Positions 4,481 to 54,800 of a DNA stretch of 64,000 nt are shown piece by piece. Position 1 is the stretch's first letter, and the number at the start of each line of letters is the position of its first letter. The stretch spans positions 27,780,067-27,844,066 of the forward strand of contig OZ035997.1 in the NCBI GenBank assembly GCA_964035015.1, written 5' to 3'. The notes below the pieces were generated by a model. The model had not been told where the DNA came from. It saw only the letters and a list, made by a program, of their open reading frames with translations, and made no database searches. The translations under genes were made by a program, and so were the position numbers. The stretch comes from Corallium rubrum. Taxonomy: Eukaryota; Cnidaria; Anthozoa; Scleralcyonacea; Coralliidae.

Positions 4481-4689
4481 CACTCTAAAAAATATCTGGT
4501 GAAAATATCCTGGTGAATTTTTTTTAACCCTATCCTGGTTGTTTGTAACAAAAATCCTGGTTAATATCGTAACAAATCTTCACTGCATAATCGCTGCGAA
4601 ATCGCTTCAACACAAATCTGGTGAAAAAATATCTTGCTTGTGATTGGTTGTCACCCGATCAGCTGATCCGATCTATTCACGGTCACAGC

Positions 4690-4765: not shown

Positions 4766-4919
4766 GACTGGTAACAAGCCCCCTGTCACCATAGCGACGA
4801 ACGCTAAGTCAGGGAAAGTCCAAAATATGGCGGGTAAAATACGCTTGATGTGGAAGTCTCTGAGTTGAGTTTTAGAGGACGTGGATGAAATTGCCGAGCC
4901 ATACGATATATCAGTGGAT

Positions 4920-5865: not shown

Positions 5866-5935
5866 ACACATCGATCAGCGCGATATGAGCGCGTTGCACC
5901 GCCCCGTATATAAGCGCCCTGGTCACAGCTCACTT
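5866..5935 (+). promoter_or_regulatory. TATA promoter-like block driving the SAM-like gene
   Basis: A GC-rich block with GTATATAAG at 5906-5914 is followed by CGCCCTGGTCACAG. It sits about 120 bp upstream of the first ATG of the SAM-like gene. An inverted homologue is at 4690-4765, and the TATA core also recurs at 46272-46306. Confidence 0.55.
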
Positions 5936-6027
5936 TTTCGCCGCCATTGTAAAGAAAGTCTGCTTTAGAAGCTATTTTTCGAAGGTATTTGATGCTTTAA
6001 TTCACGCAAACGAAATGGCACGGTAAT

Positions 6028-8917
6028 ATGATGGATAGTTTTGTTGCCGAAAAACTGGAGGAGTGGAAGTTGGCCACTCTAAAAGACGTATTTGAAGGTA
6101 AATTTAAAAAAAACTTGATTTTATGTTTGGGCGGGAAACGATGACAAAGCACTTTTTAACTATTTATTTTAATGTTTTACACCTTTTGTTGATGTGTTGA
6201 CTCTTTATTTTGATGTTTTAACGTTTTAAACTGTGTTTAAAAGGTTTACAAGCTCTTCTGTTTTAATGTTCACCTCTGGTGTTTTAATGTTCAACCTTCT
6301 GTTTAATGTCCAACTTTGGTGTTTTAATGTTTAACAATTTGCTGTTTTAATGTCCAACTCTGGTGTTTTAATATTTTATTCTTGTGTTTTAATGTTTTAC
6401 TCTTGTGTTTTAATGTTTTATTCTTGTGTTTTATTGTTTAACTCTGCTATTTTGATGTTTAACTCTGGTGTTTTGATGTTTTATTCTTGTGTTTTGATGT
6501 TGAACTATGGTGTTTTAATGTTTAACTCTGGTATTTTAACGTTCAACTCTAGTTTTTTAATGTTTTATTCTTGTGTTTCAATGTTTTACTCTTGTGTTTC
6601 AATGTTTTACTTCTGTGTTTTAATGTTTAACTCTGTTGTTTTAATGTTTAACTCTGGTCTTTTTTTCTTGAATTGTGTTTTAGTGTTGAACTGTGGTGTT
6701 TTAATGTTTAACTCTGGCGTTTTATTCTTGTGTTTTAATGTTTAACTCTAGTGTTTTAATGTTGAACTGTGATGTTTTAATGTTTAACTCTGGTGTTTTA
6801 TTCTTGTGTTTTAATGTTTACCTCTGGTGTTTTAATGTTGGACTCTGGTGTTTTAATGTTTAACTCTAGTGTTTTAATGTTGAACTGTGATGTTTTAATG
6901 TTGGACTCTGGTGTTTTAATGTTTAACTCTAGTGTTTTAATGTTTTATTTTTGTGTTTTAATGTTTTACTCTTGTGTTTTGATATTTTACTCTTGTGTTT
7001 TATGGTGTTTTATTCTTGTGTTTTAATGTTTAACTCTGGTATTTTAACGTTCAACTCTAGTGTTTTAATGTATAACTCTAGTGTTTTAATGTTTTATTCT
7101 TGTCTTTCAATGTTTTACTCTTGTGTTTCAATGTTTTACTCTTGTGTTTTAATGTTTAACTCTGGTGTTTTAATGTTTAAGTCTTGTATTTTAATGTTTT
7201 ATTGTTGTGTTTCAATGTTTTACTCTTGTGTTTTGATGTTTACTCTTGTGTTTTAATGTTTAACTCTGGTGTTTTAATGTTTAACTCTAATGTTTTAATG
7301 TTTAAGTCTTGTATTTTAATGTTTTATTGTTGTGTTTTAATGTTTTACTCTTGTGTTTTAATGTTTAACGCTGGTATTTTGTGTTTTAAAGTTTAACTCT
7401 GGTGTTTTAATGCTTTACTCCTGCATGTCTTATGTTTTATGCATCAGTCAAATCCAGAGATTTGTTAGGATACGTTAGTCATGAAGAAAAATCATGGCGT
7501 GTAGATGGGCCTTTTACAAAATCGTTACAAAATACATTCTACATGCATCTACCACTAACTTTACTTGGGGAGTATATTTTAATCTACCCCCAGGGTGGGG
7601 CATTTGTCATGCACCTTTGGCCCCATGGTGGGGGATTTTTAGCTTTGATGGTTCCCAACTCCAAGGAATTTGTATAGGTAATAGCATGGTTTCGAGTGCA
7701 ATTTGGAAAAAACATGCACGAGTGAGTTTTTCAAAGACTATCAAAATTGCACGAGTCCGAAGGACGAGTGCTATTTGAGGTCTTTGAAAAACTCATGAGT
7801 GCGTGTTTTTTTTAAATTGCACGAGAAATCATGCTATTACTTATTAATAATATACATGAAAAAATTTATCATAAAGAGAATCTTTCTAATCAAAATGCTT
7901 TGTTCAAATAACATACATGAAAAAAAAATTTAACAGGAAGAGCTTTTTTTCTAGTAAAAAATTTGCACTGTATTTCATTTTTCTGCACTGAATTACACTA
8001 AAATTGCACTCCTCTCAGCCAATCAGAATTGAGAAATTTTTTGATGTGTATTATTAACATTAAAATATGAAAAAATTACAAATGCCTGGGGGTTGGCCTA
8101 GGGGGTGGGGGGGGGGGGGGGTTGAGCATCACTGGAATTGACTGATGTTGACAACTCTGGGGTTTTTTTATGTTTAATCTTGTTGTTTTTTTCTTGTGAA
8201 GTTGAAACATAAAAATACCCTATTACCCCGCATATAAGCGCAGCGCCTATAAGCGAATTTTCTGGAATTTTGAAAAAATTTTGGTATAAAAATTGCGCAT
8301 GCGCCTATACAATTTCACTTATAGGCGCACCCGACTCTCGTACCCAGACCTACGCGCATGGGGTCTGGGTACGAGAATTGGCGCATCCTTTTTAATAGTG
8401 CAAAATATTAATGGTATTATGAATACCTCAGACGAATAAACCAAAAACAATAACTATTATCATTAACCATATAACTACAATTTATAATAGACAATGTTGA
8501 TATTTTAAAACATAAAAAGTATTTGTATCATTAAAAAAGGTATTCTGTTCATGTCTGTCTAACTCGCAAATTTTGACGGTTTAAAGCCGCATGCGCCTAT
8601 ATTCGGATATAAGCGCATGCGCCTTTATCTGCAGTGCGCTTATATGCGGGGTAATAGGGTACAACTAAAACAATTACCAAAGCTAGTGCCTTTGTTCTTT
8701 AAGTGCTCATGCATTAATTCCTCAGGAAATCATTACTTGTGGGACTGCATGCTATAATTCTATAATTCTATAAATTTTAACCTATTTCTTTTTTGGTTTT
8801 ATAGATAATTGTATTGACGAGGAAGAATTTCTACTACTGGACGACGAGACAATTAAGGAGATGATCAAAGCTGTTAATCATTATTATATAATATGTCATT
8901 ATAATCATAATCATTAA
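6028..8917 (+). CDS. Small two-exon SAM-like domain protein of the transposon
   Basis: Exon 1 is 6028-6097 and ends at a GTAAAT donor. Exon 2 is 8805-8917, with acceptor TTGGTTTTATAG; the join preserves frame and gives about 60 residues. The first 46 read like a SAM domain: VAEKLEEWKLATLKDVFED, NCIDEEEFLLLDDETIKE. Spacing of W, the L..L...F helix, the acidic turn and the L..L/E..IKE helix fits the family, which mediates protein-protein interaction. The last helix degenerates into AT-rich sequence encoding NHYYIICHYN, so the copy is probably truncated or a further exon is missed. The 2.7-kb intron is mostly minisatellite and MITEs. Confidence 0.5.
6245..7415. repeat. Minisatellite, about 21-bp units (TGTTTTAATGTTTAACTCTGG)
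   Basis: Roughly fifty degenerate units of 19-22 bp fill the SAM-gene intron. Long open frames with repeated MF(Y/N)S(C/G)VL are a by-product of the repeat, not genes. Confidence 0.95.
7678..7840. mobile_element. 163-bp palindromic MITE
   Basis: The ends GTAATAGCATG(G)TTTC and their inverted copy (7814-7840) match over about 27 bp with three mismatches. The centre is a near-palindrome GCACGAGTCCGAAGGACGAG. No coding content is present. It is nested in the SAM-gene intron. Confidence 0.7.
8218..8659. mobile_element. 442-bp MITE with CCCTATTACCCCGC ends, TA-flanked
   Basis: CCCTATTACCCCGCATATAA at 8218 is repeated inverted at 8636-8659, and TA abuts both ends (8216-8217, 8660-8661). Inside are ATAAGCGCATGCGCCT motifs and a short inverted pair CGTACCCAGACC/GGTCTGGGTACG (8339-8375). 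A Tc1/mariner-type target site is likely. Confidence 0.75.
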
Positions 8918-23121: not shown

Positions 23122-25101
23122 TAAAAAGATACTTGGTCCTGTTTATCCTGAGATGGAGTAATTGTTCCTTTCAGTATGTGTTCTCATGCGGGGCTCGGAC
23201 AAATATCTTTGACTTCTGAGACACTCGTGCGTGAAGATGAATTCGAAATTTGATACTAATTATATGTATAGCCTGACGAGTCTCAAAATGATTCTTTTGA
23301 CTATTAAATTTTGGGAGCGAAACGTCACGAACCCTCAGGAGAAGTTATAAACACTAACAAAACAAACAACCGATGGAAAATAAAATGTTGTTTTTCATTA
23401 AAATTATAAGTAAACTATAGATAATTTATTCCAAACTTATGCAAAACTCCAAACTTGACAAATGGCCATTTGATGCTATACACACCGCCGACTGCATGTG
23501 GCTTCGCGCAGTAGGGGATATAGACTTTATAATAAAGTATAGCAATGATATTGTTATCGACTATATAAATACAACGTTTTCATACGAGTCGACTGTATTC
23601 TTTGTTATGATCTACACTCTGATCTGTAATAAAGAAAGTTGATACTGATCTGCTGCCGTGTGTCATTACTATTATGACAGCACTTACATTAGACCGTACA
23701 GCAACGCATCTTCTGTTGTCATGCACTTGTTCCTCTTTGTCGGGTGATCTTATCTTAATTTATGTAGACTATATGTAATATATAGTATACACACCTTCAA
23801 ATTAAATATGTACGAAAGTAAAATAAAGAAATAAACAAATTTTCCCAGCAGGTTCTGTTCTACCGCGGACAAGTGATGAGTCAATATAATTGATCCTTGC
23901 TAATTATGCTCACTGCAGAAACATTCAGTTTATTACTGTCCAGCGCCAATGGTTGAGTCGTAGATAAATTAAGGATCTGAGTATATAAAATTGGAAAAAT
24001 TGGTTTATGTAAAAATTTATATACAATATAAACTGATAATATGATAATTAATACACACTCTGAAACCTTTTAGTTTTGCAGAAACCTTTTCCACTGACAA
24101 TGTGAAGTTAAAAGGTTACACTAAAAAATTAATGAAAGAGACAAGTATAGCGTAAAAATTAAAAAAAAAGTAAATTAAAAATACACTTGCACAAAAATTC
24201 CACATATCAACATAACTTTATCCTTTTGAATTCTGTTCAGTTTCATTCATTGTCCTTAACTCTTGTTTATTTCAGTTCAATACAATTCAAAAGATCGGTC
24301 CTGAAAATCTTCCCGAGGCAAAGGGGAAATTTAATCGCTAATTTCCCGAAAAATCATGGTATTAGTTTGTAATATGATCGCCAGGGAAAACTTTGAGAAT
24401 CTTACCGACAGGAAATTTGCAACGGTTGATCAGAGAAGTTGCAGGAAAAATATATGCAAACGGGAAATTTAGAAGAAGACAAAGGATTTCTTTGTCTTCT
24501 AATTTTCCCTCATCAACATGCACGGGAAAATTAGAAGACAAAGGAAAAATCTCCCTCTTGCATGAACAACGAGGTGTACATTCCCTCGGAGACAAGGATT
24601 ATTTTAACGTGCAATTGTGCAATGATAAATGAGATTTGTGCAGTGATAAGCGCAATTTTGTGCAGTGACAAATTTTCCTTTAATATTTAAGAATGGGTGT
24701 TATTCGTGAAATGATTGCATTAAATTAGCAAATACACAAATAAGACGATAAGTTAAACTGAGCAGGACCCCGGTCCGATATCTTCTGATAACGTTAAGCG
24801 TACCGCAAACTAACAGCCTTATGCCCTTGATTTCAACTTTCAAGATACATGAGTGTAGCCTGCCTCCCTAATAAACAAAACGCTACTAGTGTTCTTACTA
24901 TTTAGCCAGACTACCCAACGGTGCCAAACCTGCAGCCAACCCCACATAACATGCTTGAGGCTTCTCTCACTCAGGTCGATGCGTCTGTGCCCATGTGCTA
25001 CTGTTTGACAATGATTGTTATTTTGAAAATGCGAATGTATGCTGCGCGAAAGGATTAAATCATTAAAAATTGGGAAAAGGAGGGCTGCTTATGTATACTA
25101 A

Positions 25102-25240
25102 AGGCCCATTTCCACTCAGGAGAATTTTCCTCGGACAGGAAATTTCCCTTTGTCTTGTGAGCTCTTGGGCAGAACTAATGAGTTTGAGACAAAAGAAAAT
25201 GTCCTGTCCGAGGAAAATTTTCCTGAGTGGAAATGGGCCT
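25102..25240. mobile_element. 139-bp MITE, PIF/Harbinger-like, TAA target duplication
   Basis: AGGCCCATTTCCACTCAGGA at the left is inverted perfectly at the right, with inner arms TTTTCCTCGGACAGGA also paired. TAA flanks both ends (25099-25101 and 25241-25243). GGCC-type ends and a 3-bp TWA duplication are typical of PIF/Harbinger MITEs. Confidence 0.75.
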
Positions 25241-25329
25241 TAAGAATCCGAGGCGATCATGGTATTAATATTGCAACAGATCAGATCTAGATCTAGAGTT
25301 GTCTGTGAGTAGGCACTTCGCTTGCGATA

Positions 25330-25337
25330 GGAATATT
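25330..25337. repeat. Target-site duplication GGAATATT, left copy
   Basis: It is identical to 33845-33852 and directly abuts the transposon end. Confidence 0.9.
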
Positions 25338-26881
25338 GGTTGATGTTTCATGTATCGGTGTCATCAAATCAGCCAGATAAATTTTTATCTATACCACCCT
25401 AAAGTATCCCCTTGGTATAGTGACTTGACCTTATTGTGACCCAAATATGCTATCTTTGTTAACCCCAGTTATCCCAGTTATCCTAGTTATCTTGGTTATC
25501 CTAGTTATCCTAGTTATCCTAGTTATCCTAGTTATCCTAGTTATCCTAGTTATCTTAGTCATCCTAGTTCTTTTAGTTATCCTAGTTCTTTTAGTTATCC
25601 TAGTTCTTTTAGTTATCCTAGTTATCCTAGTTATCTTAGTTCTTTTAGTTATCCTAGTTATCTTAGTTCTTTTAGTTATCCTAGTTATCCTAGTTCTTTT
25701 AGTTATCCTAGTTATCTTAGTTCTTTTAGTTATCCTAGTTCTTTTAGTTATCCTAGTTATCCTAGTTATCTTAGTTCTTTTAGTTATCCTAGTTATTTTA
25801 GTTATCCTAGTTCTTTTAGTTATCCTAGTTATCCTAGTTATCTTAGTTCTTTTAGTTATCCTAGTTATCTTAGTTCTTTTAGTTATCCTAGTTATCTTAG
25901 TTCTTTTAGTTATCCTAGTTATCTTAGTTCTTTTAGTTATCCTAGTTATCCTAGTTATCTTAGTTCTTTTAGTTATCCTAGTTATCTTAGTTCTTTTAGT
26001 TATCCTAGTTATCCTAGTTCTTTTAGTTATCTTAGTTCTTTTAGTTATCCTAGTTCTTTTAGTTATCCTAGTTCTTTTAGTTATCTTAGTTATCTTAGTT
26101 ATCCTAGTTATCCTAGTTCTTTTAGTTATCCTAGTTATCTTAGTTATCCTAGTTATCCTAGTTCTTTTAGTTATCCTAGTTATCTTAGTTCTTTTAGTTA
26201 TCTTAGTTCTTTTAGTTATCCTAGTTCTTTTAGTTACCTTAGTTCTTTTAGTTATCCTAGTTCTTTTAGTTATCCTAGTTCTTTTAGTTATCCTAGTTTT
26301 CTTAGTTATCTTAGTTCTTTTAGTTATCTTAGTTCTTTTAGTTATCTTAGTTCTTTTAGTTATCTTAGTTCTTTTAGTTATCCTAGTTATCCTAGTTATC
26401 TTAGTTCTTTTAGTTATCTTAGTTCTTTTAGTTCTTTTAGTTATCTTAGTTCTTTTAGTTATCTTAGTTCTTTTAGTTATCTTAGTTCTTTTAGTTCTTT
26501 TAGTTATCTTAGTTCTTTCAGTTATCTTAGTTCTTTTAGTTATCTTAGTTATCTTAGTTATCTTAGTTATCTTAGTTTTCTTAGTTTTTCTACTTATCTT
26601 AGTTTTTCTACTTATCTTAGTTATCTTATGAATGAAAAACTGGATATTTTTATTTCTGGAATTATTTGTGGGAACAATTAAAGTTGTCTTAATCGTATGC
26701 TATTATAGAATACGCAAAATTAAGTACTGCATTTTTTGTATTGAAAATAGCTGTCCATCATGTTATAAACGAGTTGCTTACATTCAATCTGTGGAAATTA
26801 GTAGCGATATAGAAAATATAAACAAGACACAGACTCACTTGTGTTAAAAACTATAAGTATGTTTATTTACTATTTGAAACT
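25338..26881. repeat. Left terminal inverted repeat of the 8.5-kb transposon
   Basis: About 110 bp of unique end is followed by a minisatellite array of about 1185 bp (25447-26631) and a 250-bp inner part. The inner part translates to exactly the same 71 residues as its partner (32299-32514), so the two repeats are nearly identical there. Confidence 0.9.
25447..26631. repeat. 9-bp minisatellite (GTTATCCTA/GTTCTTTTA/GTTATCTTA)
   Basis: About 130 units alternate between three main variants, mostly in 18- or 27-bp higher-order blocks. Because the unit is 9 bp, one frame stays open for 394 codons as a V-I/L-L-V-L-L polymer. No start context or codon constraint suggests a protein. Confidence 0.95.
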
Positions 26882-27049
26882 ACATGATGCACAAGGCGCC
26901 ATCTTTTTTATGCTTATTTCATTCTAACGGCTTGTACTCGCGTTAATCACTGACTGATATTGCATGATTGTTCACAGTTTACTCTCTTTACTAATTTTGC
27001 ATGTTTAATTTCATGAAAAGGACTCTGCATGGTTGATAAATGTAAAACT

Positions 27050-30000
27050 TTACTTAAAATGTTGGTTTCGTTGTCTTTTGTTGCCAAGAGGTTTACTGCA
27101 GGCTCCATCAAATAGGTTAGTTAGCATACGCGGTATTTTTTTGTGCGGGATTTCTGCTTCTTCCTCTTCCTGCTCTGATGCAGATTTTTCTTGGTCATCC
27201 TTTTCTTGGGCTGGACCAGAACTGTCGTCACGTTCTTCATCGTCGACCATATCTTCATCAACAGGCATATCCTCATCCTCGGTACTACTCTCAGAGTCTT
27301 TGTTGCTACTCTCAGAATCTTTGTTACTACTCTCAGAATCTTTGTTGATACTCTCAGAATCTTTGTTGCTACTCTGAGAATCTTTGTTACTACTCTCAGA
27401 ATCTTCATTGCTACTCTCAGAATCTTCGTTGCTACTCTCAGAATCTTCGTTGCTACTCTCAGAATCTTCGTTGCTACTCTCAGAATCTTCGTTGCTACTC
27501 TCAGAATCTTCGTTGCTACTACTATCAGAATCTTCTTCATTCCGTCTATTTTGATCAGGCTATTTTGAATATAAATTTAGAAAAAAAAGGGAAATCATTA
27601 CATAACGCTTTGCACAATCCTTATGGTGAAATAATTGCAAAACAGAAATGCATTATATAGTATTGTGATGCAAATCATGCAATACATTGGATGTTAAAGT
27701 GCTTATGTCACAAAAACTTTTTTTTAACTTTTGAGTAGAGGACAAATAGGTTCTTTAACATTTTTCGGTTTTCTCTTTTCATTCGTGAGATATGCGGCTC
27801 TAAACAGCAATTTTCGTGAAAATGTCGCGTATCAACAAGAGTCTGGGACGAGCGTGGTGTGACGTAGCTTAAGGGACTTGTTAATTTTAACAATAGCCTT
27901 TTAGTACTCCTTCACATGTGAATTCGAACCTCCGTCCCTTAAGCTACGTCACACGGCTGTCGCCCCAGACCCTTTTCCGTTTTTTTCTCGGGCGCGACAA
28001 TTTTTTGCTAAAAGCCAATTTTTCAAGGTTTAGAGCCGCATATCTCGCGAATGAAAAGAGAAAACCGAAAAATGTTAAAGAACCTATTAACTAACTTTTT
28101 GTCCTCTACTCAAAAGTCAAAAATTTTTTTTTGTGACATAAGCACTTTAAAGTTACAACGATTTGTAAATTAAACTGAAGCATATACGTTAGAAAGAACT
28201 TGATAATCCGAGCAAAAGTTATCATTTATAGAAAATGGTTTGTCACTTTCTTGATTGCTTAATATTTAAATTTTCTCCTCCTATTTAGTTGTAATGTGCT
28301 GCCCGTGTAGTTTGCATTCTGTATTAATTATGTAGATGTGTATATAAAACGTTGCCTAGTGTATCCAGTGTAGAAATTAACCACCATTAGTTGCATATAT
28401 ATGTCACGTAACCCTTACCAAGAATTTTATTCGCGTTCCAGCTGGAAAAGAGCAGTAGCTACAAACTGAAGGACCACCAAGTGCTACTTCTTGACCTTCG
28501 CTGATGTCACTAGTTATTGCGTGGGTCACTTGAAATGTATTCGTTGCAGAAATCTGGCCATGAGCCACGATGATTGTGCCTTTAACCAGCCACTTATTTT
28601 CCTCGGAACCTGTATGACAAAAGTGTACGTAAAAATAATAGCATCGTTTTCTTCAAGCCTATATTTCATTTTTATACCTTTAAAGAAAAAGAAGTAATGA
28701 TGTTCAAACACATTTTGTTGTCCGGAATATTTTATTTTTTTCTGCCTAAACTAAAGACTGGAAAATACGTATCAACTGAAAGAGCAATATCGTAGGTTTC
28801 CTGACAGCTCGGGAATCAATAAGTTGCGTGGTTTTGCGTGCAGACAAAAAAAATGCGCACGGTCATATGAGAAATTATTCAGATGTTTATTATACACTTT
28901 CTAGTATGTCTTTTGCGAAGAACGTTGCACACTGATTAATTGGTTGCCCCTCGTGTCTTTAATTTGCAATAAATATACCTACATAATATGAACTGGTTTT
29001 TTGATTAACTTTAAGTAACCAATTAAATTGTCAACCACAAATTAATTTTGCTCCTATGCTTCTTACTGTCTAGAGTAAAGATTTTTGTTTGGTGACTTAA
29101 ACAATCATAAACCTTTTTTGCCTAAATGCCCGGGAGTTTTTTTTCGGGAAATCTATGAGCTGGCATGTCCTTTTTTCAGCTCAGACATTTTTAACTTAAA
29201 AGTAGGCTTTTTTAAAAGAGTTCAAACTAATAAAAATATGTTTCTGGAGGGCAACGTCATATTACGTTTTAAGTTTATTCGAAGATAAAATTAAAGCAAA
29301 ATACATCAGTTTTTGTTGAAAATTACATATTATTAATCACAAAGACATAAACGCAAATATCCGATGACGACTTACAGATAATTGAAACCTCCTGCGCTGC
29401 TTGTGTTTCTTCGTTGTCATCTGAGATATAAAACAATTATCAAAAATTGTAAGTCAACCCATATAATGCTCGTTATATAATTAAATCTCGCGTGCAAATA
29501 TTGTAGGTAAAAAGTGTATAAATTATATATAGAGGATATTACATGGTGGTGCGAAGATATGGATTTTATCTTCGAGTGGTGAAAACAATATTTTACGAAT
29601 GAGCGTAGCGAATGAGTAAAATATCGTTTTTACCGCGAGAAGATAAAAGTCATATCTTCAAGCCAGCGTGTAATTTTCTTTTTATTATATAGATTCAATG
29701 CAAAAAGAGGTAAAATTCTTAATGACGTCATCGATATCTTCACTAGTGAGGATAAAACACTCGCATCTATATAATAAAATTGTATATGAAACGCTGCAAA
29801 CCCTTAAAAGCGTAAATCGAAAAACGAAACAATACAAGTCCCCAAAACTATAAGTCATACAGTATATAACGAACTCCTTATCTAACCTCGATTTCTAGCG
29901 CATCACGGCGGCCTGTACGAAAAGTATCCTGCAGGAAAATACCTAATTTATCTACAACAGTAAGCCTAAATTAATTAACAATTGTACGGGGAAATATTAC

Positions 30001-31338
30001 CTGGTTCATTTTGCGGAGTAGTGAAACCTAACACTGAAAAAAGAGATTAAAAATTTATCAGAATTGATATAAAAATTATTTTGCTAACCCTGCGCGCAAT
30101 ATACCTTCTTTTCCAATAATATGGGTCTTTATACGAAGTGCCGTGAATTGGATTATCTATCTTAAAGTATAATGAATTTACTCTTGGCCACGTGGTTTAA
30201 AACAACAAAATGCAGTCAAAGGTCTTTGACAAAAGATTTTGACGTTCGTTTGCTACTTTGCACTGAATTAATGTTTTTCAAAGCAAGCCTATATTATTTC
30301 TTGTATTCAGAAGGGGAGGGGGGGGGGGGGGAGGGGGCGAGGGGGCGAGGGAGCGGCTGCCTCAATGTTTTTCAGGGGTAATTTCAGATTCGTCCAAATC
30401 CGGTGAAAAATTGCTGGGGGTGCAACCATTCTGAAAATCAATATTCGGCAGTGTATGGAAAGATTATATGGAAAGTTTTAATCCTGACACACTGATGTTA
30501 CGATTTTACTAAAACAAAAGAAGAAGAAAAACCCCGAAAAAGTAATTTATGTTTTGGTTTCTCAGCATTCGATTTAGACCGAAATGTTTCTTAAAAGTGA
30601 ACGCCCTTGTTCACGCTGTTAAATATGTGATTTAAGACCTTCATGTTCTGCTGAAAAGTGCCCTCAAATGCAGGAAATGCTGTTTCAGACACCCAAAATT
30701 TAAATTTTTTTCCGAGGGTAAACCCCCAAACTCCCTAAAAACGTGTCACCAATTTTTAACAGCGTACTCTATTTCCCCCCAACTACAAATCAAAGCGGCG
30801 CTACGGATTATATTGTTTTTCTTTGATTAACATTGTGGACTGTCATTGGTTGATTTGAGTTGGGTGGCTTCGAGTCGTTACTGCAAAAGAAATAAGAAAA
30901 TAAACTGGATCTAGAAATTTGGCTCTATTTGTCATAGATTTATCACGCGAGTTTTCATTCACACAATACAGAAGGTATTGTGGTTTCCGAGAAGTTATAT
31001 TAAAGCGCTAACCTATTATAATGCCACTTACTTTTATCCAACTGTTTTCGAACTTCAAGTTTGACACAACGTCGACTAACAGTGACCGCTCGCAATTTAT
31101 TTGAGTTTTTGGTTTTAATAACAGTTGCCTTTACGCCTTCTTTCAAAAAATTTCTCAAAGGATTCAATTCTCCCAATTTTCCCCTTTCGATGGCGTTTTC
31201 GACATCCACCTTTGTTGGCTTCTTTACACCTTTTAAGGCGAAATATAAAAATCCATTTCTGCGGTTGAGTGCATAAAAATTTCCATCGGCATTATGTGTT
31301 TTCGTTGCAGCGACACAAGGATTGATGTATTGCAACAA
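27050..31338 (-). CDS. Spliced transposon-borne gene, at least 5 exons, acidic Ser-rich C-terminal region
   Basis: Exons in transcript order: 31338-31032, 30033-30001, 29420-29376, 28609-28419, 27559-27050. Each has a proper acceptor (for example TTTTTTCAG, TATATCTCAG, CATACAG) and donor (GTAAGT, GTAATA, GTAAGT, GTAAGG), and phases fit to a TAA stop, giving 361 residues. The first exon starts with TTG after an acceptor, so the true start lies upstream and is not found. Residues 1-102 include GNFYALNRRNGFLYFALKG and many Lys. Exon 4 encodes VKGTIIVAHGQISATNTFQV and ends PSVCSYCSFPAGTRIKFL. Exon 5 has about ten SNEDSES repeats, an Asp/Glu-rich segment and a basic end. The function is not recognised; transposase accessory or DNA-binding roles are only guesses. 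Introns carry MITEs while exons are intact. Confidence 0.6.
27269..27520 (-). repeat. 21-bp coding repeat (SNEDSES) in the transposon gene
   Basis: About eleven 21-bp units GAAGATTCTGAGAGTAGCAA/C are in frame in exon 5. Variants replace Glu with Lys in the units nearest the 3' end. Confidence 0.9.
27695..28149. mobile_element. 455-bp foldback MITE in an intron of the transposon gene
   Basis: AAAGTGCTTATGTCACAAAA at the left is inverted at the right. The arms of about 190 bp also share AACATTTTTCGGTTTTCTC and CTTAAGCTACGTCACAC. It sits wholly between exons 4 and 5. Confidence 0.8.
29537..29675. mobile_element. 139-bp palindromic MITE with GAATGAGCGTAGCGAATGAG centre
   Basis: The arms GAAGATATG.(A/C)TTTTATCTTC pair around the centre ACGAATGAGCGTAGCGAATG. 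It is nested in the intron between exons 2 and 3 of the transposon gene. Confidence 0.65.
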
Positions 31339-31487
31339 CTATATATAATCAGTAACGAAAAAGCAATAGATCAGTAGAAAGAAGGCAATTCAGCATCGCA
31401 TATTAACCCTCTAAGGACAATCAGGCACCCAGATATAGGGTAGAAGGCTTCTGCATGTCTCCATAAATTTTATATAATAAACAGAAC

Positions 31488-31617
31488 AATACAAGGATGT
31501 GCGGAAATATGAAATTTATTTCTCGTTTTGACCAAGATATCTTACTCGTTCGCTTCGCTCACTCGTGAGATATTTTGGTCAACACTCAAAATACATTTTC
31601 CGCACATCCATGTATTA
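31488..31617. mobile_element. 130-bp palindromic MITE with ACTCGTTCGCTTCGCTCACT centre
   Basis: AATACAAGGATGTGCGGAAA at the left pairs with TTTCCGCACATCCATGTATT at the right, and TTGACCAAGATATCT with AGATATTTTGGTCAA. It lies between the two genes of the 8.5-kb transposon. Confidence 0.75.
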
Positions 31618-31681
31618 TTCTCTATACCTTTATTACTAGTATTATTATCATCAATACCAATTTCATTTACTTCTTAAATAG

Positions 31682-32211
31682 GGCAAGAAAAAGACGAAAA
31701 GAAAAGTTGCAGATGTGGTATTAACCAAAAGCCGGACGCAAAGTTAAAAAGAAAATATAATTCGCGTTGTTCATGCAAGGGGGCTTGTGGAAAGATGTGT
31801 AAGTGTCATGGCTTATGTGGTGGCAAAGAATGTGGTGGTAATATCGAAAAAACTACAAATAATTCACCTAAAGGACGACGCAAAAGGTTCAAACACGATT
31901 TTCAAAAAACTCCTACTAAAAGATCCGTATCGTTTATGCAGGACATGGGGGAAAACGTACATGTTGGTGATCCAAATTTGCTAGAATATTATGCTATTTG
32001 TTCTCTTGTGCTTTCGCATGATTCTTTGCACCAAATTTCACCGGAAATAATTCACAAATCATTTGTTGGTCTCATTCACATATTAGTTAGCTTTGGTTTT
32101 AATCTTCCGATTGGCTTACGCACACTGCTTGAAATAAAAAAACAATTAGAAAAAATAAAAAAAATACAGCTAATGATTTATGCCATATTACATCATGGCG
32201 GAAATGCATGA
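31682..32211 (+). CDS. Exon encoding a cysteine-rich CXC-like protein, transposon-borne
   Basis: An acceptor-like TTTACTTCTTAAATAG precedes a frame open to a TAG-free stretch ending at 32211, about 175 residues. Near the start lies a cysteine cluster: CRCGIN, then 14 residues, then SRCSCKGACGKMCKCHG and LCGGKECGG, nine Cys in about 42 residues. The alternating C-x-C and C-x3-C spacing resembles CXC (tesmin/TSO1-like) DNA-binding motifs and the cysteine clusters accompanying some transposases. A basic stretch (PKGRRKRFKHD) follows, then an uncharacterised hydrophobic C-terminus. Upstream exons are not found on this strand, and the opposite-strand gene occupies the neighbouring DNA. It may be a terminal exon or a remnant. 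Confidence 0.55.
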
Positions 32212-32264
32212 CAATCTCACTCATGATCATATAGAAATGTGTATTCAAACTTAACATTGAAAAC

Positions 32265-33844
32265 TGTTTCAAATGGTAAATAAACATACTTATAGTTTTT
32301 AACACAAGTGAGTCTGTGTCTTGTTTATATTTTCTATATCGCTACTAATTTCCACAGATTGAATGTAAGCAACTCGTTTATAACATGATGGACAGCTATT
32401 TTCAATACAAAAAATGCAGTACTTAATTTTGCGTATTCTATAATAGCATACGATTAAGACAACTTTAATTGTTCCCACAAATAATTCCAGAAATAAAAAT
32501 ATCCAGTTTTTCATTCATAAGATAACTAAGATAAGTAGAAAAACTAAGATAAGTAGAAAAACTAAGATAACTAAGATAACTAAGATAACTAAAAGAACTA
32601 AAAGAACTAAAAGAACTAAGATAACTAAGATAACTAAGACAACTAAGATAACTAAGAAAACTAAGAAAACTAAGAAAACTAAGAAAACTAAGAAAACTAA
32701 GAAAACTAAGAAAACTAAGAAAACTAAGAAAACTAAGATAACTAAGGTAGCTAAGATAACTAAAAGAACTAAGATAACTAAGAAAACTAAAAGAACTAAA
32801 AGAACTAAGATAACTAAAAGAACTAAGATAACTAAAAGAACTAAGATAACTAAAAGAACTAAGATAACTAAAAGAACTAAAAGAACTAAGATAACTAAGA
32901 TAACTAAGATAACTAAAAGAACTAAGATAACTAAAAGAACTAAAACAACTAAGATAACTAAGATAACTAAAAGAACTAAGATAACTAAAAGAACTAAGAT
33001 AACTAAAAGAACTAAAAGAACTAAGATAACTAAAAGAACTAAGATAACTAAAAGAACTAAGATAACTAAAAGAACTAAGATAACTAAAAGAACTAAGATA
33101 ACTAAAAGAACTAAGATAACTAAAAGAACTAAAAGAACTAAGATAACTAAGATAACTAGGATAACTAGGATAACTAAAAGAACTAAGATAACTAAAAGAA
33201 CTAAGATAACTAAAAGAACTAGGATAACTAAAAGAACTAAGATAACTAAAAGAACTAGGATAACTAAAAGAACTAGGATAACTAAAAGAACTAAGATAAC
33301 TAAAAGAACTAAAAGAACTAAGATAACTAAAAGAACTAGGATAACTAAAAGAACTAGGATAACTAAAAGAACTGAGATAACTAGGATAACTAAAAGAACT
33401 AAGATAACTAGGATAACTAGGATAACTAAAAGAACTAGGATAACTAAAAGAACTAAGATAACTAGGATAACTAAAAGAACTAGGATAACTAGGATAACTA
33501 AAAGAACTAGGATAACTAGGATAACTAAAAGAACTAGGATAACTAGGATAACTAAAAGAACTAGGATAACTAGGATAACTAAAAGAACTAAGATAACTAG
33601 GATAACCAAAAGAACTAGGATAACTAGGATGACTAAGATAACTAGGATAACTAGGATAACTAGGATAACTAGGATAACTAGGATAACCAAGATAACTAGG
33701 ATAACTGGGATAACTGGGGTTAACAAAGATAGCATATTTGGGTCACAATAAGGTCAAGTCACTGTACCAAGGGGATACTTTAGGGTGGTATAGATGAAAA
33801 TTTATCTGGCTGATTTGGTGACACCGATACATGAAACATCAACC
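32265..33844. repeat. Right terminal inverted repeat of the 8.5-kb transposon
   Basis: This is the inverted partner of 25338-26881. Its satellite array (32515-33735) is about 36 bp longer than the left array and has a different order of variants, including a run of (AGAAAACTA) units at 32650-32730 absent on the left. Confidence 0.9.
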
Positions 33845-33852
33845 GGAATATT
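33845..33852. repeat. Target-site duplication GGAATATT, right copy
   Basis: It is identical to 25330-25337. The DnaJ start codon lies 34 bp further on. Confidence 0.9.
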
Positions 33853-33886: not shown

Positions 33887-36800
33887 ATGGCGTCGATTCG
33901 ACTGCAATCTTGTATATTTTGTTGGAGATCATTTCTTTTACCTTCTTCCAAACTTCAGGTCCGCCATGCTGGCCATTACAGAGTATTTTATCCATGTAGT
34001 TTAAAGTCTATTATAGTAGGACGACAAAATGGTGAGTGGATACGTGGCACGTGCTATCAAGAAATCCATGCTCAACTCGTGGAGACTATGGTCTGTGGAG
34101 TGGAACTCGTGTTATCAGAAAGCAGTTCAACAAAAATAACGTAATTTGTTTTCAACATTTTTCTAGTAAGAAGCGTTTGGAATGATGAGCTGCTTAACAT
34201 GCGTTGCCGACGCTTTCATACTTCGAGTAAGTCTTGTGTTTATGTGTTAAAATATAAACTAAGAGTGCTGCGTAGGCAGTGTTTATTTGCATAGAGAAAA
34301 CTGAGGTTTTCATAACGAAATATTGTGTTTTGAGCGGAGGCCTTCATTTACAGAGCAGAGTAAATGGCTCCTCTCGAAACGTCAGTATTTCGTTACTGAA
34401 TCCTATGCAGTTTAGCATCTACAATATTCACTTAACATATTTTTTATTGTACAATAGCACTGTATAATATATTATAACATAAGGTGTCCTCTACGCATGC
34501 TCTGATTGGTTGGGCTCCATGCATTTATAAGAGAACATAGATCATGAATGACGTAGAATTACTCAACTTCTTTCGTGTTCAAATGACGTCAAACGTACTT
34601 TTATAAGAGTACATATGCACGGAGCTTTATGTTTTATTTGTTAAATGAAGAAGTGAGTGTGGGATTTGATTGTTGTCATACACAATATATTGAAGAGTCT
34701 GACAATAATAGTGAAGTGCACAGATAATGTCAAATTCACGTTTGTCTGAGTTTATAATTTAATTATTCTCTTCATTTCCAACAAAAGGAAATTTTTATTT
34801 TTTTTTATTTTAATAACTTTGCCGTACACATTACAAACATAAATACAGACATTACAGGTAAACTACATCAAGTGTTCCTTCTTTTAGGTGCAAAGTTGAT
34901 TGCAATTTTGATTTAGTTCGTTTGCAAATTTGCAAATTTCCAATCAAATTTGCAATATTCCTATGGGAAATTCACTTCCTGTTAAATTTTCCTAAGTTCC
35001 TGTTAAATTTTCCTAAGTTCCTGTTTTAATTTCCTAACTTCCTGTTTTGTGTACTAGTCTTTTATTATGTTTTTGCTTTCAAAATACTTTTATAATAATT
35101 TTATATACTACGGTATATAAAAACTACCCAAACACATTATATTCTACTTGGTTTGATAAACTGTTACATTTGGATCACCACCTCTGCAATGAATGAGACG
35201 TATAAGTATATTCATGTAAACAAAGAGTCTGTTGGTGTTCATTGTACTTTCAAATTTTCAAAACCTTGCTGGTCACTCACTACACTTAAAATACTTCTAA
35301 GATATTGTGAACTAAATCATGCAACTGGTGATATTTTCCTGGTTGACCAACCAACTTACAAACCCGAGCAGTATTTATAAAATGCCTGCTGCATGATACA
35401 TGTCGAATACTAATTTTACTCAGGTTTGCAAGTCAATCTTTTAGTGTGTAACATCTTACAAATATTACATAAATCAAGCTAGTGACCAGCAAAGTTTTTA
35501 AAATTTGAAGCTACAATGAAAACACCAATGGACTCTAAATTTTAAAACCAGGCACCTTTGTTTAAGTTATTTGTGGGTGTGGTGGTGATTCGAACCTAAT
35601 GGCTTGTGATGTCAAACCAAGTAATGTGTTTTAGTTTTGAATTTGCTTCTTTGAATACAAAGTAATATGTATATATAGCCTTCATATATATAATTTTTAT
35701 TTTTGAGCAACCTTTTAAAAGCAAAAACATAATACATGTAAAAGACTACTACACAAAACAAGAAGTTAGGAAATTAAAACAGGAACTTAGGAAAATTTAA
35801 CAGGAACTTAGGAAAATTTAACAGGAAGTGAATTTCCTACAGGAATATTGGAAATTTGCAAAGGAAGTAAATCAAAATTGCAATCAAGTTTGCAACTAAA
35901 AGAAGGAAAACTTGATGTAGTCTACCTGTAAGACAATACACTGGGTAACTGCAACAGCTAATGCCAATTACTGCAGTCCCAAAACAAGTACGATTTAACA
36001 GAATTACTTTAAAAATACATAATGATATTACAACATTAAATACATTAAATTTACTACGATATCTACTAATAGCAACACGATGGTGGGTTCACAAGGCAAT
36101 TCAAGCTGTGTTGCATGCTTTTCCATATTCGTGAGTTGCGTAGGTCATTTTGTGTTGCTAAATGGGTCATTAGAAATCCCTCGCTGCAATTCCCATTTGT
36201 TTGTCTGAGTTTTGGTCTATAAATAGGAACTGGGCACTTTGCTATTACTGTATAGGGACAAAAATACTACGGTAAGTGTTTAGAGGAGTGTTTCTTGAGA
36301 GGTGAGTGGCAGAAATACTACAGTATATTAAAACAACATTTACAGTATATTGTGGATAAGGATCAATTCTATATATATGTCTGTGTTTTTTCAGCTTTGA
36401 ATTATCAGAAAGATTTTTATAAAATTCTTGGTGTTTCAAAGACAGCAGCACAAAAAGATATTAAAAAGGCATATTTTGATGTAAGTAAATTGCTATACTC
36501 TTTGGACACTTTCTGTTTCTACATATATATGTACAGTATTGTACAAGTCAATTGATATCCAATACCTGCAATCAGAATCAGGTGGACAAGCAGGAATTGG
36601 ACATCATGGATTGTCAAATTGATTCAGTGGACAAGGGTTTTTCCAATAGGAAAATAATTTTCAGATGGAGCAGATACATAATTATATTATTTACTGACTG
36701 GGAGGTCTGTATAGAGAAATATTTCCCAAGGTCTCAAAAATAACCCTCAGCCAAAAATGACCTGAGGTTGCAGGCCAAGGGTCATTTTTGAGGGAAATAT

Positions 36801-39800
36801 TTCTCTATACGGACCAACCAAAATGGTAAATAATTTTTTTTAATTCTAATTATCCCCACTTGGTTCTTTTGGTCTTCATCAGTGTTTAGAGTGAACAAAA
36901 AAGGGAAGTCTGTTGTTTCTTTCATAAAAGGAAATTAGATTTTAAGGTGTCTGTCACAGATGAAGAACTCACTTTCAATATGCTCGGTTTCATTTAAGTT
37001 CATTTTCAAACATTTTTAGAAAATTTTACGGCCTATAAAACATTTAAAAAATTTATCTTGAGAGGTCTGTACAGGCTCATACGGATTCACTTGTTAGCCA
37101 ATCAGAAAGCAGGATATGGTAGGATACATAAGGGCATGTATTTTCCCATATGTTGGATGGTATACAGTACTGTAGTTGATATTAGAGAACACGACTGGGC
37201 TAGAGGTAATTTAGATGGTGTCTGTTGGTTTGGATGGGTCCAATTGATCCAATGGATAATGGTTTCTCCAATAGGAAAATATTGTAGTTAGTGTGAGATC
37301 TGAGAAGAGGACTGGGGGAGAGGAGGTCTTTTGAATGGTGTCCATTGGTTTGGGTAGATATGATTGATCTGATAGACAAGGCTTTTTCCAATAGGAAAAT
37401 ATTTGTTGGATGGACATGTACAATTTGTCCAATTATATGAAAATATGTGTTTGATGGTACTGTATAGTTGATGTGAGAGAACAAGACTGGGGAAGAGGTC
37501 TCTTGAATGGTGTCCATTGGTTTGGATGGATCCAATTGATGCGATGGACAAGCTTAGGGTTTTTATGGGAAAATATTTGTTGGATGGGAGGGATGGATAA
37601 TGGCGTTTGGTGTCCAGACATTTGTAGCTCAAGCTCAATTACTGAAAGATTTCTGAGCCCCAGATATGGTACAAACCTGCAACCTTCTAATTATGACTGG
37701 TTAGACACTCGTGTCAGATGGCATAGTTGGTGCGAGATCTGAGAAGAGGACTGGAGGAGAGGTCTCTTGGATGGTGCCCATTGCCATTGGTTCAGATGAA
37801 TCCAATTGATCTGATGGCCAAGAGTTTTTTCAATAGGAAAATATTTGTTGGATGGAAAGGATGGACATATACAGTATTTTTCCAATAGGAAAATACGTGT
37901 CAGATGGTATAATGGATGTGAGAGAACAAGACTGGACTATAGGGCCTCAGAGATCAAGGAGCCTCAGAAATTGTTTAAAAGTCTTCCAAGAGATCTTTAG
38001 TATGCTAAAAAGGCCCACAATATTAAGTAAAAACTAAAAAGTAGATTTAGTTGTTTATTTCAAAGTTTAATAGCCACAGTCCTCAAATTGCAGGAAATAC
38101 AATTTCAGAGACCCAAGAGTCTAAACGTTTACCAGGGGGCATGCCTCAGACCCCCTAGTAAGGGGGCCTCCACCCAATTATTTTGCCCCAGTCATCTCTG
38201 CAAGCTTATGTTGAACTGACTACAGACTTTGACAAATGTCTAACAAATGTCTATCACATATTACAGAATATTTACTACATTTTTTGAAAAGACTACTTTT
38301 GTTTTCTGACTGCTACTGAGAATTATACATACATGTGTACTGTACTGTACTGTACTGTACTGTATTGTACTGTACTGTACTGTACTGTACTGTACTGTAC
38401 TGTACTGTACTGTACTGTACTATGCTGTACTGTACTGTACTGTATACTGTACTGTACTGTATACTGTACTGTACTGTACTGTACTGTACTGTACTGTACT
38501 GTACTGTACTGTACTGTACTGTACTGTACTGTACTGTACTGTACTGTACTGTACTGTACTGTACTGTACTGTACTGTGCTGTGCTGTACTGTACTGTACT
38601 GTATACTGTATACTGTACTGTACTATACTGTACTATACTGTACTGTACTGTACTGTACTGTACTGTACTGTACTGTACTGTACTGTATACTGTTCTGTAT
38701 ACTGTACTGTACTGTACTGTACTGTACTGTACTGTACTGTACTGTACTGTACTGTACTGTACTGTATACTGTACTGTATACTGTACTGTACTGTACTGTA
38801 CTGTACTGTACTGTACTGTACTGTACTGTACTGTACTGTACTGGTTATTGATTTCAATTTGAAATCATAGTTAATGTACTTAATATACCTTTGTTGTAGT
38901 GCGTAATTTAATGCTTGGAAACTTTGAATTGTTATGTTTATTTAGTTGGCTAAAAAGTATCACCCTGACACTAATAGATCTGCTGGAGCTGCTGAAAAAT
39001 TTCAAGAAATTAGTGAAGCTTATGAGGTACAGTACACTACGAGTTATATGTAGAACAGCCATTCCATTGTGACTCGTGTGACAAAGTCACAAAATTTTAA
39101 GGTTAAAAAGGGTTTTTTCTGCACAAATTTAGCACAAAGCAAGCTTGCTTTAGATAAGGTAGCCCTGGGGGACATAATTTAAGTAATATATTTAATTCCT
39201 AACAAATTATATTCTAAGCCTTCGATTTAATGACTTATGGCCATGTGACTCGTGTGATACCAGAAATGAGAAAGTTACCATTGGCAACATATTAATTATA
39301 TTTAATTTTATCTTTTGTAAGACATATAGTTAGACAAGATACAATGACACTCGTGTGTAGTGAAGTTTGAGCAAAAACATTTGTAGCCAACGAAATAATG
39401 TTGCAAGTTTAATGTGATTCGCGTGACATAAAAATGGGACTCGCGTGACGAGTGGCGAATAACATAACAAAAATCCAGTTTAAATAACATTAACAATCCT
39501 GCAATGTCTGGCATAGGGCTTGATACCACGCCATTAACTACTGTACCCGCACTAGTGTGCCTAAACACACTACAGTAATGTAAACGTATGACCTTCGGAG
39601 GGTGTAGCTCCGTCGGAGAGGGTTTGCCCTAATAGCTGAGGAACAGTTTACAGGAACAGGCGATCCACCAAGACGGGAGCGGTCTTATAGGTAGAGCAAC
39701 TCCAGGCAAGCCTAAACTCCCAACTAACTTGTAGCAATGTTGCCGAGAATTACCTTCTCCTAACAGAACTACTGTCACACATAAAGTGGAGACGTAACTT

Positions 39801-51800: not shown

Positions 51801-54800
51801 AAATCCTTGTAGAAAATGTAATGGAGCTGGTAGTGTTATGGAAACAAAGAAAGTTACTGTTCCAGTGCCGGCAGGTACATCTAACCTTGATGTAAATTAA
51901 GTCCTGGAAGCTTTTGTGTGGCAAATTTCAATCATGAATTTCGATATTTCAGAATTTCAGTGGAGATGATTTTAGTGGAGATAGTCGTCTTATGTAACTA
52001 AATATTATATTTCTATACAGGTATTGAAAATGGTCAGACAATTAGGATGCCCATGGGTGGTGGTGAAATATTCGTAACATTTAAGGTAAAAAAGAATAGG
52101 CGAATTTCAGGTATTTGAATTGCCGACGTCTGCACTTTATTTCAAGTCTTTTTTGAATATAATGCAAATGTTAAATCTTTATTCGAAAAATACGTTCTAT
52201 AGTTCTCTTGTTTTATTCATTCCAGTAATATTTTTCCCCTTTTTTATCATTATGTTTAGGTTGATAACAGCAAGATATTTGAGCGTGATGGACCGAATGT
52301 TCATTCTACAGCAGCAATAAGTTTTACTCAGGTAAAAACTATTTCGAGAATACCAATTGAAATAATATACAGTCAAATCTCTACTTATATGGGCAACTTA
52401 TTTAGGCGGATACCTCTATTAAGCAGACACCCCGATTAAACGGACACGTCCCTTAAGCGGATACCTCTCTTAAGCGGACACCTCTCTTAAGCAGACGCCT
52501 CTCTTATAAGCACACTTCTCTTAAGCGGATACCTCTTACGCGGACACCTCTCTTAAGCGGATACCTCTCTTAAGTAGACACCTCTATTAAGCGGACATCT
52601 CTCTTAAGCAGACACCTCTATTAAGCGGACACGTCTCTTAAGCAGACACCTCTTTTAAGCGGACACCTCTCTTAAGCAGACACCACTCTTGAGCGAATAC
52701 ATCTCTTAAGCATTAAGCAGACACTTATCTTAAGCGAACACCTCTCACAAGCAGACACTTCTCTTAAGCGGACACCTCTCTTAAGCGGACACCTCTTTTA
52801 AGCGGACACCTCTCTTAAGCGAATACATCTCTTAAGCGGACACCTCTCTTAAGCGGACACCTCTTTTAAGCGGACACCTCTCATAAGCGGACACCTCTCT
52901 TAAGCGGACACCTCTCTTAAGTGGACACCTCTTTTAAGCGGATGCCTCTCTTAAGCGGACACCTCTATTAAGTATTAAGCGGATACATCTCTTAAGTGAA
53001 CACCTCTCTTAAGCGGATACTTCTTTTAAGCGGATACCTCTCTTAAGCAGACACCTCTATTAAGCGGATACATCTCTTAAGCAGACACTTATAGTTTCGT
53101 CTCACTATCTTTATCTCTTCTAAAAATCGACTTGTTTTATCAAGTAACATTTATAATACAGTTAATCGTTGATGCATGGTTTATAACAAATCTGCACTTT
53201 CGCTGGTTACTATTATTAATATTTTTTCATGTATGAAAAGGCAATTTTAGGTGGTTCTCTGAGAGTTCCGGGACTACACGGGGATGTTGATATTAAGGTA
53301 TCAATATTAGTTTCAACAGTTATGACTTCGTCCTTAACTACTATCCCATCCTTCTTTCTTGTCCTTTCTGTTTCTTTTCTGTTTTTCTTTCTTCTTTCCC
53401 TTCTTCCTTTTTTTCCTTTCCTTCCCTCTTCTTCCCCTCTTCGCCCTTTCATTTATTCATGTGGTTATCGTATTTTTGCTATGTACATGTAAAGATTGTG
53501 GTAAATGTTACATTAATTTCATTACTGAAATAATGGCTAAGTCACTTATTGAAGCTTCTCCCCCCTCGCCCAGTAAATTATTTGCAGATTGACACTATAT
53601 AGTTCGTCATTTAACCAAACAATATCTGCAATCGTACCCTTTTATAAGTTTTATTTGTTGATGAATAGTTAATGGTTGTGAATATTTTATTCAGATTCCA
53701 GCAGGAACACAGTCCCATCAAAAAATTCGGCTGGCGGGAAAAGGAATTTCTCGATTAAATGGTTTTGGCAGAGGGGATCATATTGTGCATTTTCAGATGA
53801 ATATTCCCAGGTAAAAATTGCATTCATAACATTAATATTTGCAGTCACGTCTATTGAATTGAATTAAGCGCAACATAATTCAACTCATTAATAATTCATG
53901 AGCAAATCGTACAATTCTTCAGATGCGCTTAATTGTACCAGGGGAGTACTGGACAGAGGACTTGAACTGTTTGTTTTTTCAAGAAATCAAATCAATAACG
54001 CAAATTCATTCACATAATCGGTTTATTGATGCGCACACTAATTACTAATACACTGATTGATTTTGACAATAAACTACTGGAAGTCATTCAAATCTGTATG
54101 ACATAAATACGTCTGTATGTTTTAGTAATGTCGTTTTGATAACCTGAAATTCATGTAAACATTGTAGGTATTTGACTGAAAAACAAAGAGCGCTTATAAC
54201 TGCTTTTGCTGAGCTAGAAGAAGACTTACAAGGAACAGTTAATGGCATAGATAAAGAGAAAGGTGAGAAATAGTTTTTAATGTTAAAACTTTGTTTTATT
54301 AAATTCTATATATATGGAGTTCGGAAGTGGGTTTCAGTGCTTTCAAGATTAAATTCATATGCCCTGCTTATATTAATCTATTTCGATTTCAGTGAGTATT
54401 TTAATTATTCTTGATATATATTTTTCAACGTGAATTGGCCACTTTCCAAGTGTTGCGCACGCTTCATTTTCGCAGGTTTTACTTGAAACCACAGGGGCGG
54501 ATAGAGGAAGTTCACGGTTACCGTGGATCAATACTCATCTCCATAACCTTGATTTACTCTAAACATAATAAGATTGTAGCAGGGTAACCACAATAGCTTT
54601 TGGCCATTACTGTGGTCCCAAATAAATTCAAGCTAAAGAAACATATTTACAAAGTTACATATACAGACATCAAGCTAGAAACAACACGGAAGGTCAAGGG
54701 GTTTAGATAGGTCACGTGCCCGATTACATTTTATGCAAATCGTTTTCCACGAACGAGGGTCATCTACATTTTAAGTGTTTTCCAAAGAAGAGTAGTAGTA

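Follow-up and report, generated by a model that had tools for sequence, protein, structure and literature searches.

Which machinery moves a large transposon whose inverted repeats consist mostly of satellite DNA, and to which superfamily does it belong? The question is raised by an element in a stretch of 64,000 nucleotides from Corallium rubrum (GenBank assembly GCA_964035015.1, contig OZ035997.1, positions 27,780,067 to 27,844,066 of the forward strand), hereafter the window, in which all coordinates without a prefix are counted. A first-pass annotation, made from the letters of the window, had reported a transposon of unassigned superfamily with no transposase recognised, either a new group or a non-autonomous member of a known one. 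We have good confidence that the element is a non-autonomous copy, shortened by internal deletion, of a large MULE-like cut-and-paste transposon with two genes. The ends, duplications, satellites, gene content, conservation in two families, internal deletion and near-identity of copies on which this reading is built are established.

The transposon occupies positions 25338-33844 and carries a perfect 8-bp duplication, GGAATATT, on both flanks. Its two ends are GGTTGATGTTTCATG and the complement of that sequence, each directly abutting the duplication. The first-pass coordinates proved exact to the base, and the duplication, the ends and the 9-bp satellite that it had seen filling most of each inverted repeat are all present. 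The boundaries, arms and arrays are laid out as follows:

25330..25337, no strand: left target duplication GGAATATT, 8 bp
25338..26880, + strand: left terminal inverted repeat
25338..25466, + strand: left terminal domain, 129 bp ahead of the satellite, whose first 32 bp show 1 mismatch to the group motif GGTTNNNNTTTCATGNNNCGNNGTCACNAAAT
25467..26628, + strand: left satellite array of 9-bp units AGTTATCYT / AGTTCTTTT, period 18, 64.6 copies
32266..33844, - strand: right terminal inverted repeat
32518..33715, - strand: right satellite array, inverse orientation, 66.6 copies
33716..33844, - strand: right terminal domain, with the group motif GGTTNNNNTTTCATGNNNCGNNGTCACNAAAT at 0 mismatches
33845..33852, no strand: right target duplication GGAATATT, 8 bp

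Each inverted arm is ~1.55 kb long and mostly made of the 9/18-bp satellite, the period of 18 being two 9-mers joined. BLAST of the element against itself aligned the arms over 1,587 columns at 90.5%, with the duplication partly included. The inner ~250-bp part of the arms shows 99.5% identity between left and right over the ~190 bp compared.

A search of the 474-Mb genome with the terminal 131 bp yielded 36 matches, many of them in convergent pairs 8-16 kb apart. We examined 17 places besides the window (20 stretches) and found readable flanks at both ends in six copies, window included; the other places had one end only or degraded ends. Perfect 8-bp duplications flank the window copy and the copies at C37 (GATTTACA), L015 (AATTTTTG), L018 (CAATTTTA) and L019 (CTTCCAGG). 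An element at C150 likewise has CCAGTTTC on either side, again a perfect 8-bp duplication, which brings the count to six of the seven copies with both flanks read. The 36 terminal matches, the many convergent pairs and the duplications perfect in 6/7 together indicate that the element is not a chance structure. Misplaced ends would not have been shared by other copies; here both the ends and the 8-bp repeat recur.

As the first pass had noted, a spliced gene lies on one strand of the element and a cysteine-rich exon on the other, but what it had described as genes are in both cases the C-terminal remnants of larger ones:

27050..27559, - strand: second gene, last exon, with acidic Ser/Glu/Asp repeats (21-bp period) and then a basic end (by eye)
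28419..28609, - strand: second gene, next exon, with GT-AG borders
31032..31338, - strand: second gene (putative P-loop nucleoside triphosphatase, NTPase), C-terminal-region exon
31468..31471, no strand: deletion junction TTTT, 4-bp microhomology
31682..32211, + strand: last exon of the predicted DDE-OTU-CXC transposase, with the nine-cysteine CXC domain and C-terminal tail

The second gene is represented by three minus-strand exons, with GT-AG borders where tested, and lacks its P-loop exon; the catalytic and OTU exons of the transposase are absent as well. At 31468-31471, second-gene sequence meets the final intron of the transposase gene, and the two parents of this junction are visible, one in a copy at C231 and the other in L015, L017, L019 and L022. 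Over element positions 1272-6142 the C231 copy is matched piecewise at 93.7-100%, the exceptions being element 2371-2818 (a palindromic insert) and a short gap near 4753-4842. In the CXC exon region (element 6139-7215), identity is 98.5-99.3% with L009, L015, L017, L019 and L022, and 96.6% with L021 over a shorter part. These alignments indicate that the window copy arose through internal deletion. It cannot be autonomous and is a non-autonomous derivative, as one of the two first-pass alternatives had it, with the transposase carried by sister copies. Its near-identity to other copies suggests that it moved or was copied recently. Palindromic short elements are also nested within this copy, one at 27694-28150, missing from the C231 copy, and two, ~72% alike, at 29527-29685 and 31478-31626, the last of which adjoins the deletion junction.

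What, then, do the deleted exons encode? In L015 and L019, long open reading frames (ORFs) stand in place of the window's second gene and are followed by the same cysteine-rich exon, and in L009, L017, L021 and L022 the transposase ORF is interrupted or partial. A genome search with the L019 ORF gave at least 103 matches (81 of 185 candidates scored), which were merged by hand into 72 transposase places. Long open frames were found in the diverged members L039 (1013 aa), L040 (1088 aa) and L048 (1050 aa), which have in common the motifs CDHTxK/ADHTFK, D(N/T)CCxW, D(L/P)FHA and a late (D/N)E(R/G). We read these as a putative D-D-(C/D)xxH-E signature, with 71-73 residues between D1 and D2 and 126-132 between D2 and E; the third acidic residue was set by alignment within the transposase family, by sequence comparison only. 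In all three proteins the DDE motifs are followed by a region resembling the ovarian-tumour (OTU) domain and then by the CXC domain. Pfam reports OTU in L039 above the cut-off (3.5e-5) and MSL2-CXC in L048 slightly under it (1.9e-5). The window's own CXC exon encodes nine cysteines and aligns with the CXC of L040, L048 and L039; its membership rests on that alignment, as Pfam lists no family for the exon. Gene 1 is accordingly best described as a predicted transposase in which a DDE core is combined with an OTU cysteine-protease domain and, at the C-terminus, the nine-cysteine CXC domain. A transposase that went unrecognised on first pass can thus be recognised in sister copies carrying these ends, and the cysteine exon aligns with a CXC domain that matches MSL2's in the relative L048 rather than representing a KDZ-type cluster. 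Compared by sequence with PDB, the transposase gave only weak OTU-type matches among others, and an IMG/VR scan with the family profile returned 80 pattern matches with no relative among them. Separately, 9 of the 72 transposase places fall on contig C82, where they range from 86 kb to 2.81 Mb; the contig may be a hot spot or a transposon graveyard.

The C231 copy also supplies the missing portion of the second gene, which extends upstream there by an exon with the Walker A motif GPNNTGKTT; the corresponding motif in a relative at C28 is GDNDTGKTT. Across the whole genome the P-loop exon has four matches, at C231 (the query itself), C150, C28 and C82, and all four (three independent) lie within 12 kb of an OTU-transposase place, as does at most 0.36% of the genome. 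The window exon at 31032..31338 occurs at six other places, namely the four P-loop loci, C37:13973217 and C198, and the N-terminal exon recurs at the same four loci plus six weaker places. Since the three exons co-occur at four loci near the transposase, we regard the NTPase-like gene as a linked second gene in a subset of the group. Gene 2 is predicted to span several exons, one of them encoding a P-loop (Walker A) NTPase region; the NTPase label is taken from Walker A/B-like motifs read by eye because Pfam and PHROGs give the exon no family name, and PDB by sequence yielded nothing useful. To our knowledge, it would be unusual for a cut-and-paste element of eukaryotes to carry a linked gene for a P-loop NTPase. 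Capture of a host gene is disfavoured as the origin of the minus-strand gene, given that its exon is found at six other places and that at four of these the P-loop exon and an OTU transposase are close by.

The same ends extend beyond the close relatives of the window copy. Upstream of the C28 transposase, which is 38% identical to that of the window family, lies GGTTATACTTTCATGATACGCAGTCACGAAAT, similar to the window element's end; ~110 bp further on begins an 18-bp satellite that differs in sequence. The combined terminal motif has 76 genome matches at up to 3 mismatches, with 0 for the reversed-pattern control. Among them are 19 convergent pairs shorter than 30 kb (range 3.5-28.2 kb, window included), six of which enclose a transposase place, and the motif occurs within 25 kb of 14 of the 72 transposase places, where ~0.6 would be expected. 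The C150 pair spans 28,235 bp, and between its ends lie matches to the transposase and to each of the three NTPase exons used as queries. C150 is the sole copy found with both genes matched and a perfect duplication, and it puts the complete element at 28 kb. At C15 (16172101-16180999), the second satellite runs on the + strand at 16172249-16173209 and on the - strand at 16178747-16180851, with a transposase between them. A search for this satellite gave 657 exact-copy matches genome-wide (control 0), its places being drawn from the first matches listed. The C15 layout of end motif, ~150 bp and inverted satellite shows a second family of the same build with a different satellite. Across the group, the ends comprise a terminal domain of ~110-150 bp with a conserved 32-bp motif, and then the inverted 9/18-bp satellite.

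Several observations weigh against this picture of a coherent two-gene group. The seventh copy with readable flanks, L017, has an imperfect duplication (CAAAGTTC vs CAAAGTGG, 6/8 match), and several of the 3-mismatch motif matches look like chance. With only 14 of the 72 transposase places near the motif, most members of the wider family either end differently or are broken. One of the four two-gene loci, C28, shows no right end that fits the motif. The N-terminal NTPase exon match at C150 contains two stops, and we do not claim that copy to be intact for this reason; its contents are known from matches rather than from a base-by-base reading. C37:13973217 and C198 have the second-gene exon with no listed transposase or P-loop exon nearby, so that the second gene may have an older host origin. 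The OTU domain falls below the Pfam cut-off in L040 (0.054) and L015 (0.0082) and is not listed by Pfam for L048, where the OTU-like region was assigned from the alignment, and the CXC profile found no match among PDB chains at E up to 1. Finally, the ORF at C284 has no satellite within 2.9 kb. At C52 a 9-bp array lies on one side only, and the terminal motif there is no better than chance. In view of C284 and C52, there is no support for a satellite throughout the wider DDE-OTU family.

To which superfamily does the core of the two-gene element belong? We aligned the DDE cores of four family members with four canonical MULE domains of the same genome using hhalign and obtained a probability of 89.7 (E 1.8e-6), each profile being built from 4 sequences and the alignment reaching over the D2 half of the domain only. 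The second catalytic D and (C/D)xFH were in register, spaced 21 on both sides. The maxima for 40 column shuffles per side were 2.8 and 0.7, the reversed profile gave 0.1, and three KDZ domains of the same genome gave 0.2 (E 0.28). We call the core MULE-like on the basis of this probability, the shared register and the low shuffle, reversed and KDZ scores; it would lie either inside the MULEs or beside them. The motifs are also consistent with the RNase H-like core with D, D, E and (C/D)xxH expected of a MULE, and the 8-bp duplication, perfect in 6/7, falls within the 8-11-bp range of PMC6446971 Table 1. Foldback architecture, with long inverted repeats largely of tandem units, is found in both the window family and the second family.

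Pfam speaks for a more distant position. The MULE profile (PF10551) has matches at 98 genome places, none of them a transposase place of the family. It has no match at cut-off to the transposase and was unlisted for the three long ORFs at E up to 10, HMMER filters dropping most matches above 0.1. The lack of a Pfam MULE call would fit a separate transposase superfamily, sister to the MULE/IS256/ISL3 cores rather than within MULE, as would the spread of weak matches to DDE_Tnp_ISL3 (0.15 and 0.21), ZSWIM1-3 RNaseH (0.2) and a PHROG transposase (0.036). Long divergence, the OTU-CXC architecture, an NTPase partner encoded by a second gene with a P-loop, and the satellite ends also set the group apart. 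We nonetheless find such a superfamily rather unlikely in light of the hhalign result and of the spacing from D2 to (C/D)xFH, which equals that of MULEs; moreover, OTU is already on record in one cnidarian MULE group (PMC6446971 Table 1).

The families named on first pass fare worse than the MULE-like assignment. A foldback or Galileo-type element of the P superfamily, with satellite repeats derived from a P/THAP transposase lineage, would have a similar look, as Galileo's long inverted repeats also contain tandem repeats, in which transposase binding sites lie (PMC4079207). This origin is highly improbable, because Pfam scans of the L015, L022, L039, L040 and L048 proteins, which come from copies with these ends and their relatives, show no THAP or P-element domain, the family core aligns to MULE cores and the duplications are 8 bp. 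The same scans list no hAT dimerisation domain or BED finger, and hAT was rejected as the family. A KDZ/Zisupton element would account for the cysteine-rich domain and for an 8-bp duplication, a length that the first pass associated with KDZ. We give it just as little credence, as Pfam scans list no KDZ/Zisupton domain (PF18758), the genome's KDZ matches sit at 30 other places, none coinciding with the family, the hhalign score against three of them is negligible, and the cysteine domain is CXC/MSL2-like and C-terminal. The P/Galileo, hAT and KDZ leads are thus unsupported. The profile search for a DDE domain in longer members, proposed at the same time, did reveal a core that resembles MULE by hhalign, though Pfam MULE does not call it. 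Rather than being of unassigned superfamily, the window element derives from a MULE-like, two-gene, satellite-ended group of the same genome.

One copy with these ends has unrelated contents. L018 (C8:48566300-48574550) has just the terminal ~142 bp (98%) and the satellite in common with the window element; its arms are 98% identical over 2.7 kb, its 8-bp duplication is perfect, and its core holds a Pox_A32-type ATPase gene (Pfam 8.9e-6, above cut-off). L018 could be taken to mean that the true autonomous element is viral, a virus-like element or provirus using these ends, and at C231 virus-like ORFs do appear beside the transposase by eye. We consider this very unlikely. The A32-type ATPase family is scattered through the genome independently of these ends (1711 candidates, of which 129 were scored), the 28.2-kb element couples the ends with transposase and NTPase, and among the 19 convergent pairs, whose contents were read for a minority, only L018 is known with the ATPase. 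Because the ATPase is repeated throughout the genome, we rejected it as a regular part of the MULE-like element and retain it as a fact about L018, which looks like the uptake of a virus-like module between these ends. Three further observations concern virus-like sequences. In several places the A32-type ATPase ORFs are inverted neighbours 1-2 kb apart. In L041 and L047 (C231:118500-131500), ORFs that look virus-like by eye (membrane-type, integrase-like) abut a truncated family transposase; for the one C231 ORF scanned with Pfam, no convincing family emerged. Near a member copy, L021:8482-9666 is an ORF with a Parvo_NS1 / E1-type helicase match (Pfam 8.5e-21).

How might such an element move? 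The transposase would bind the terminal motif, excise the element and reinsert it with an 8-bp stagger. The CXC domain, or an N-terminal zinc-type region, may use the repeated satellite units as a series of docking sites; this would account for the retention of an array whose sequence differs from family to family. Galileo's internal repeats have likewise been proposed as transposase binding sites (PMC4079207). The chances that CXC binds the satellite seem to us about even. The OTU domain may aid transposition by protecting the transposase or the repair machinery against ubiquitin-dependent host control, in line with a suggestion made for Ginger1 (PMC2836005). The NTPase may act in synapsis or target choice; we rather doubt that it is needed for transposition. 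The window copy would make neither active protein and would be mobilised in trans.

A bolder reading would see a distinct superfamily-level lineage, with a DDE-OTU-CXC transposase, a P-loop NTPase helper, CXC-site arrays that co-evolve with CXC, and uptake of virus-like gene modules as in L018. We think this improbable; if true, the two-component machinery would be a eukaryotic counterpart of the MuB/TnsC principle, with each family having its own satellite. A large transposon group that has been little described can now be defined, and satellite DNA as well as gene capture (L018) can arise from this system. For foldback-type elements, dead copies can be all that is known, as for Tetris; here a transposase partner, exact ends and duplications are available. 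Because two families share the terminal motif but differ in their 9/18-bp satellite, the role of satellite inverted repeats becomes testable.

Other repeats were noted in the window. Just beyond the left end of the transposon, a palindromic short repeat lies at 25095-25247 (arms 61 bp, 90%). A small element at 34852-35931, ~1 kb past the transposon, has inverted arms of ~210 bp with a 21-bp tandem repeat and ends TTACAGGTARACTACATCAAG; by eye, no duplication was found around it. Further satellites are a 17-bp repeat TTAAGCGGACACCTCTC at 52402-53088, a 21-bp array at 6253-7420 and a 5-bp TGTAC array at 38336-38843.

Among known systems, the closest in print is MuDR-6_HM of MULE group 14, which PMC6446971 Table 1 lists as cnidarian, with an OTU domain, one ORF, terminal inverted repeats given as 'None' and no target duplication indicated. 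It is a cnidarian MULE with a MULE DDE core and shares an OTU domain with the window group; its entry, the description on which this comparison is based, mentions no satellite, CXC or NTPase gene. Rehavkus, an outgroup of MULEs in Arthropoda and Annelida with a 9-bp duplication, inverted repeats of 26-400 bp and a PHD finger, resembles the group in having a minisatellite near its ends and a MULE-like DDE core (PMC6446971). As described there, however, its minisatellite precedes the 3' repeat, whereas here the satellite lies inside both ~1.55-kb repeats, and the window group differs further in its 8-bp duplication, its OTU and CXC domains and the absence of a PHD finger from our Pfam scans. Tetris, like Galileo, has long inverted repeats with internal tandem repeats; it was put in Mutator from its 8-10-bp duplications and earlier foldback suggestions, and PMC4079207 reports finding no autonomous copy of it. 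Its units are ~220 bp as against 9 bp here, where a transposase-bearing partner is known. Some Hydra transposases of Ginger1 end in an OTU domain, and a role of OTU/Ulp1 in transposition was proposed by the authors (PMC2836005); Ginger1 differs in its Gypsy-integrase-like core and other zinc fingers, and the available part of that paper describes neither satellite repeats nor a second gene. The CXC of MSL2 binds DNA and forms a Zn3Cys9 cluster of three zinc ions and nine cysteines (PMC3447885). The window CXC also has nine cysteines, and L048 matches Pfam MSL2-CXC, but MSL2 is a chromatin targeting protein and no transposase (PMC3447885). As far as we found, the whole architecture is undescribed in the open-licence literature on OTU, CXC, Rehavkus, foldback and NTPase transposons.

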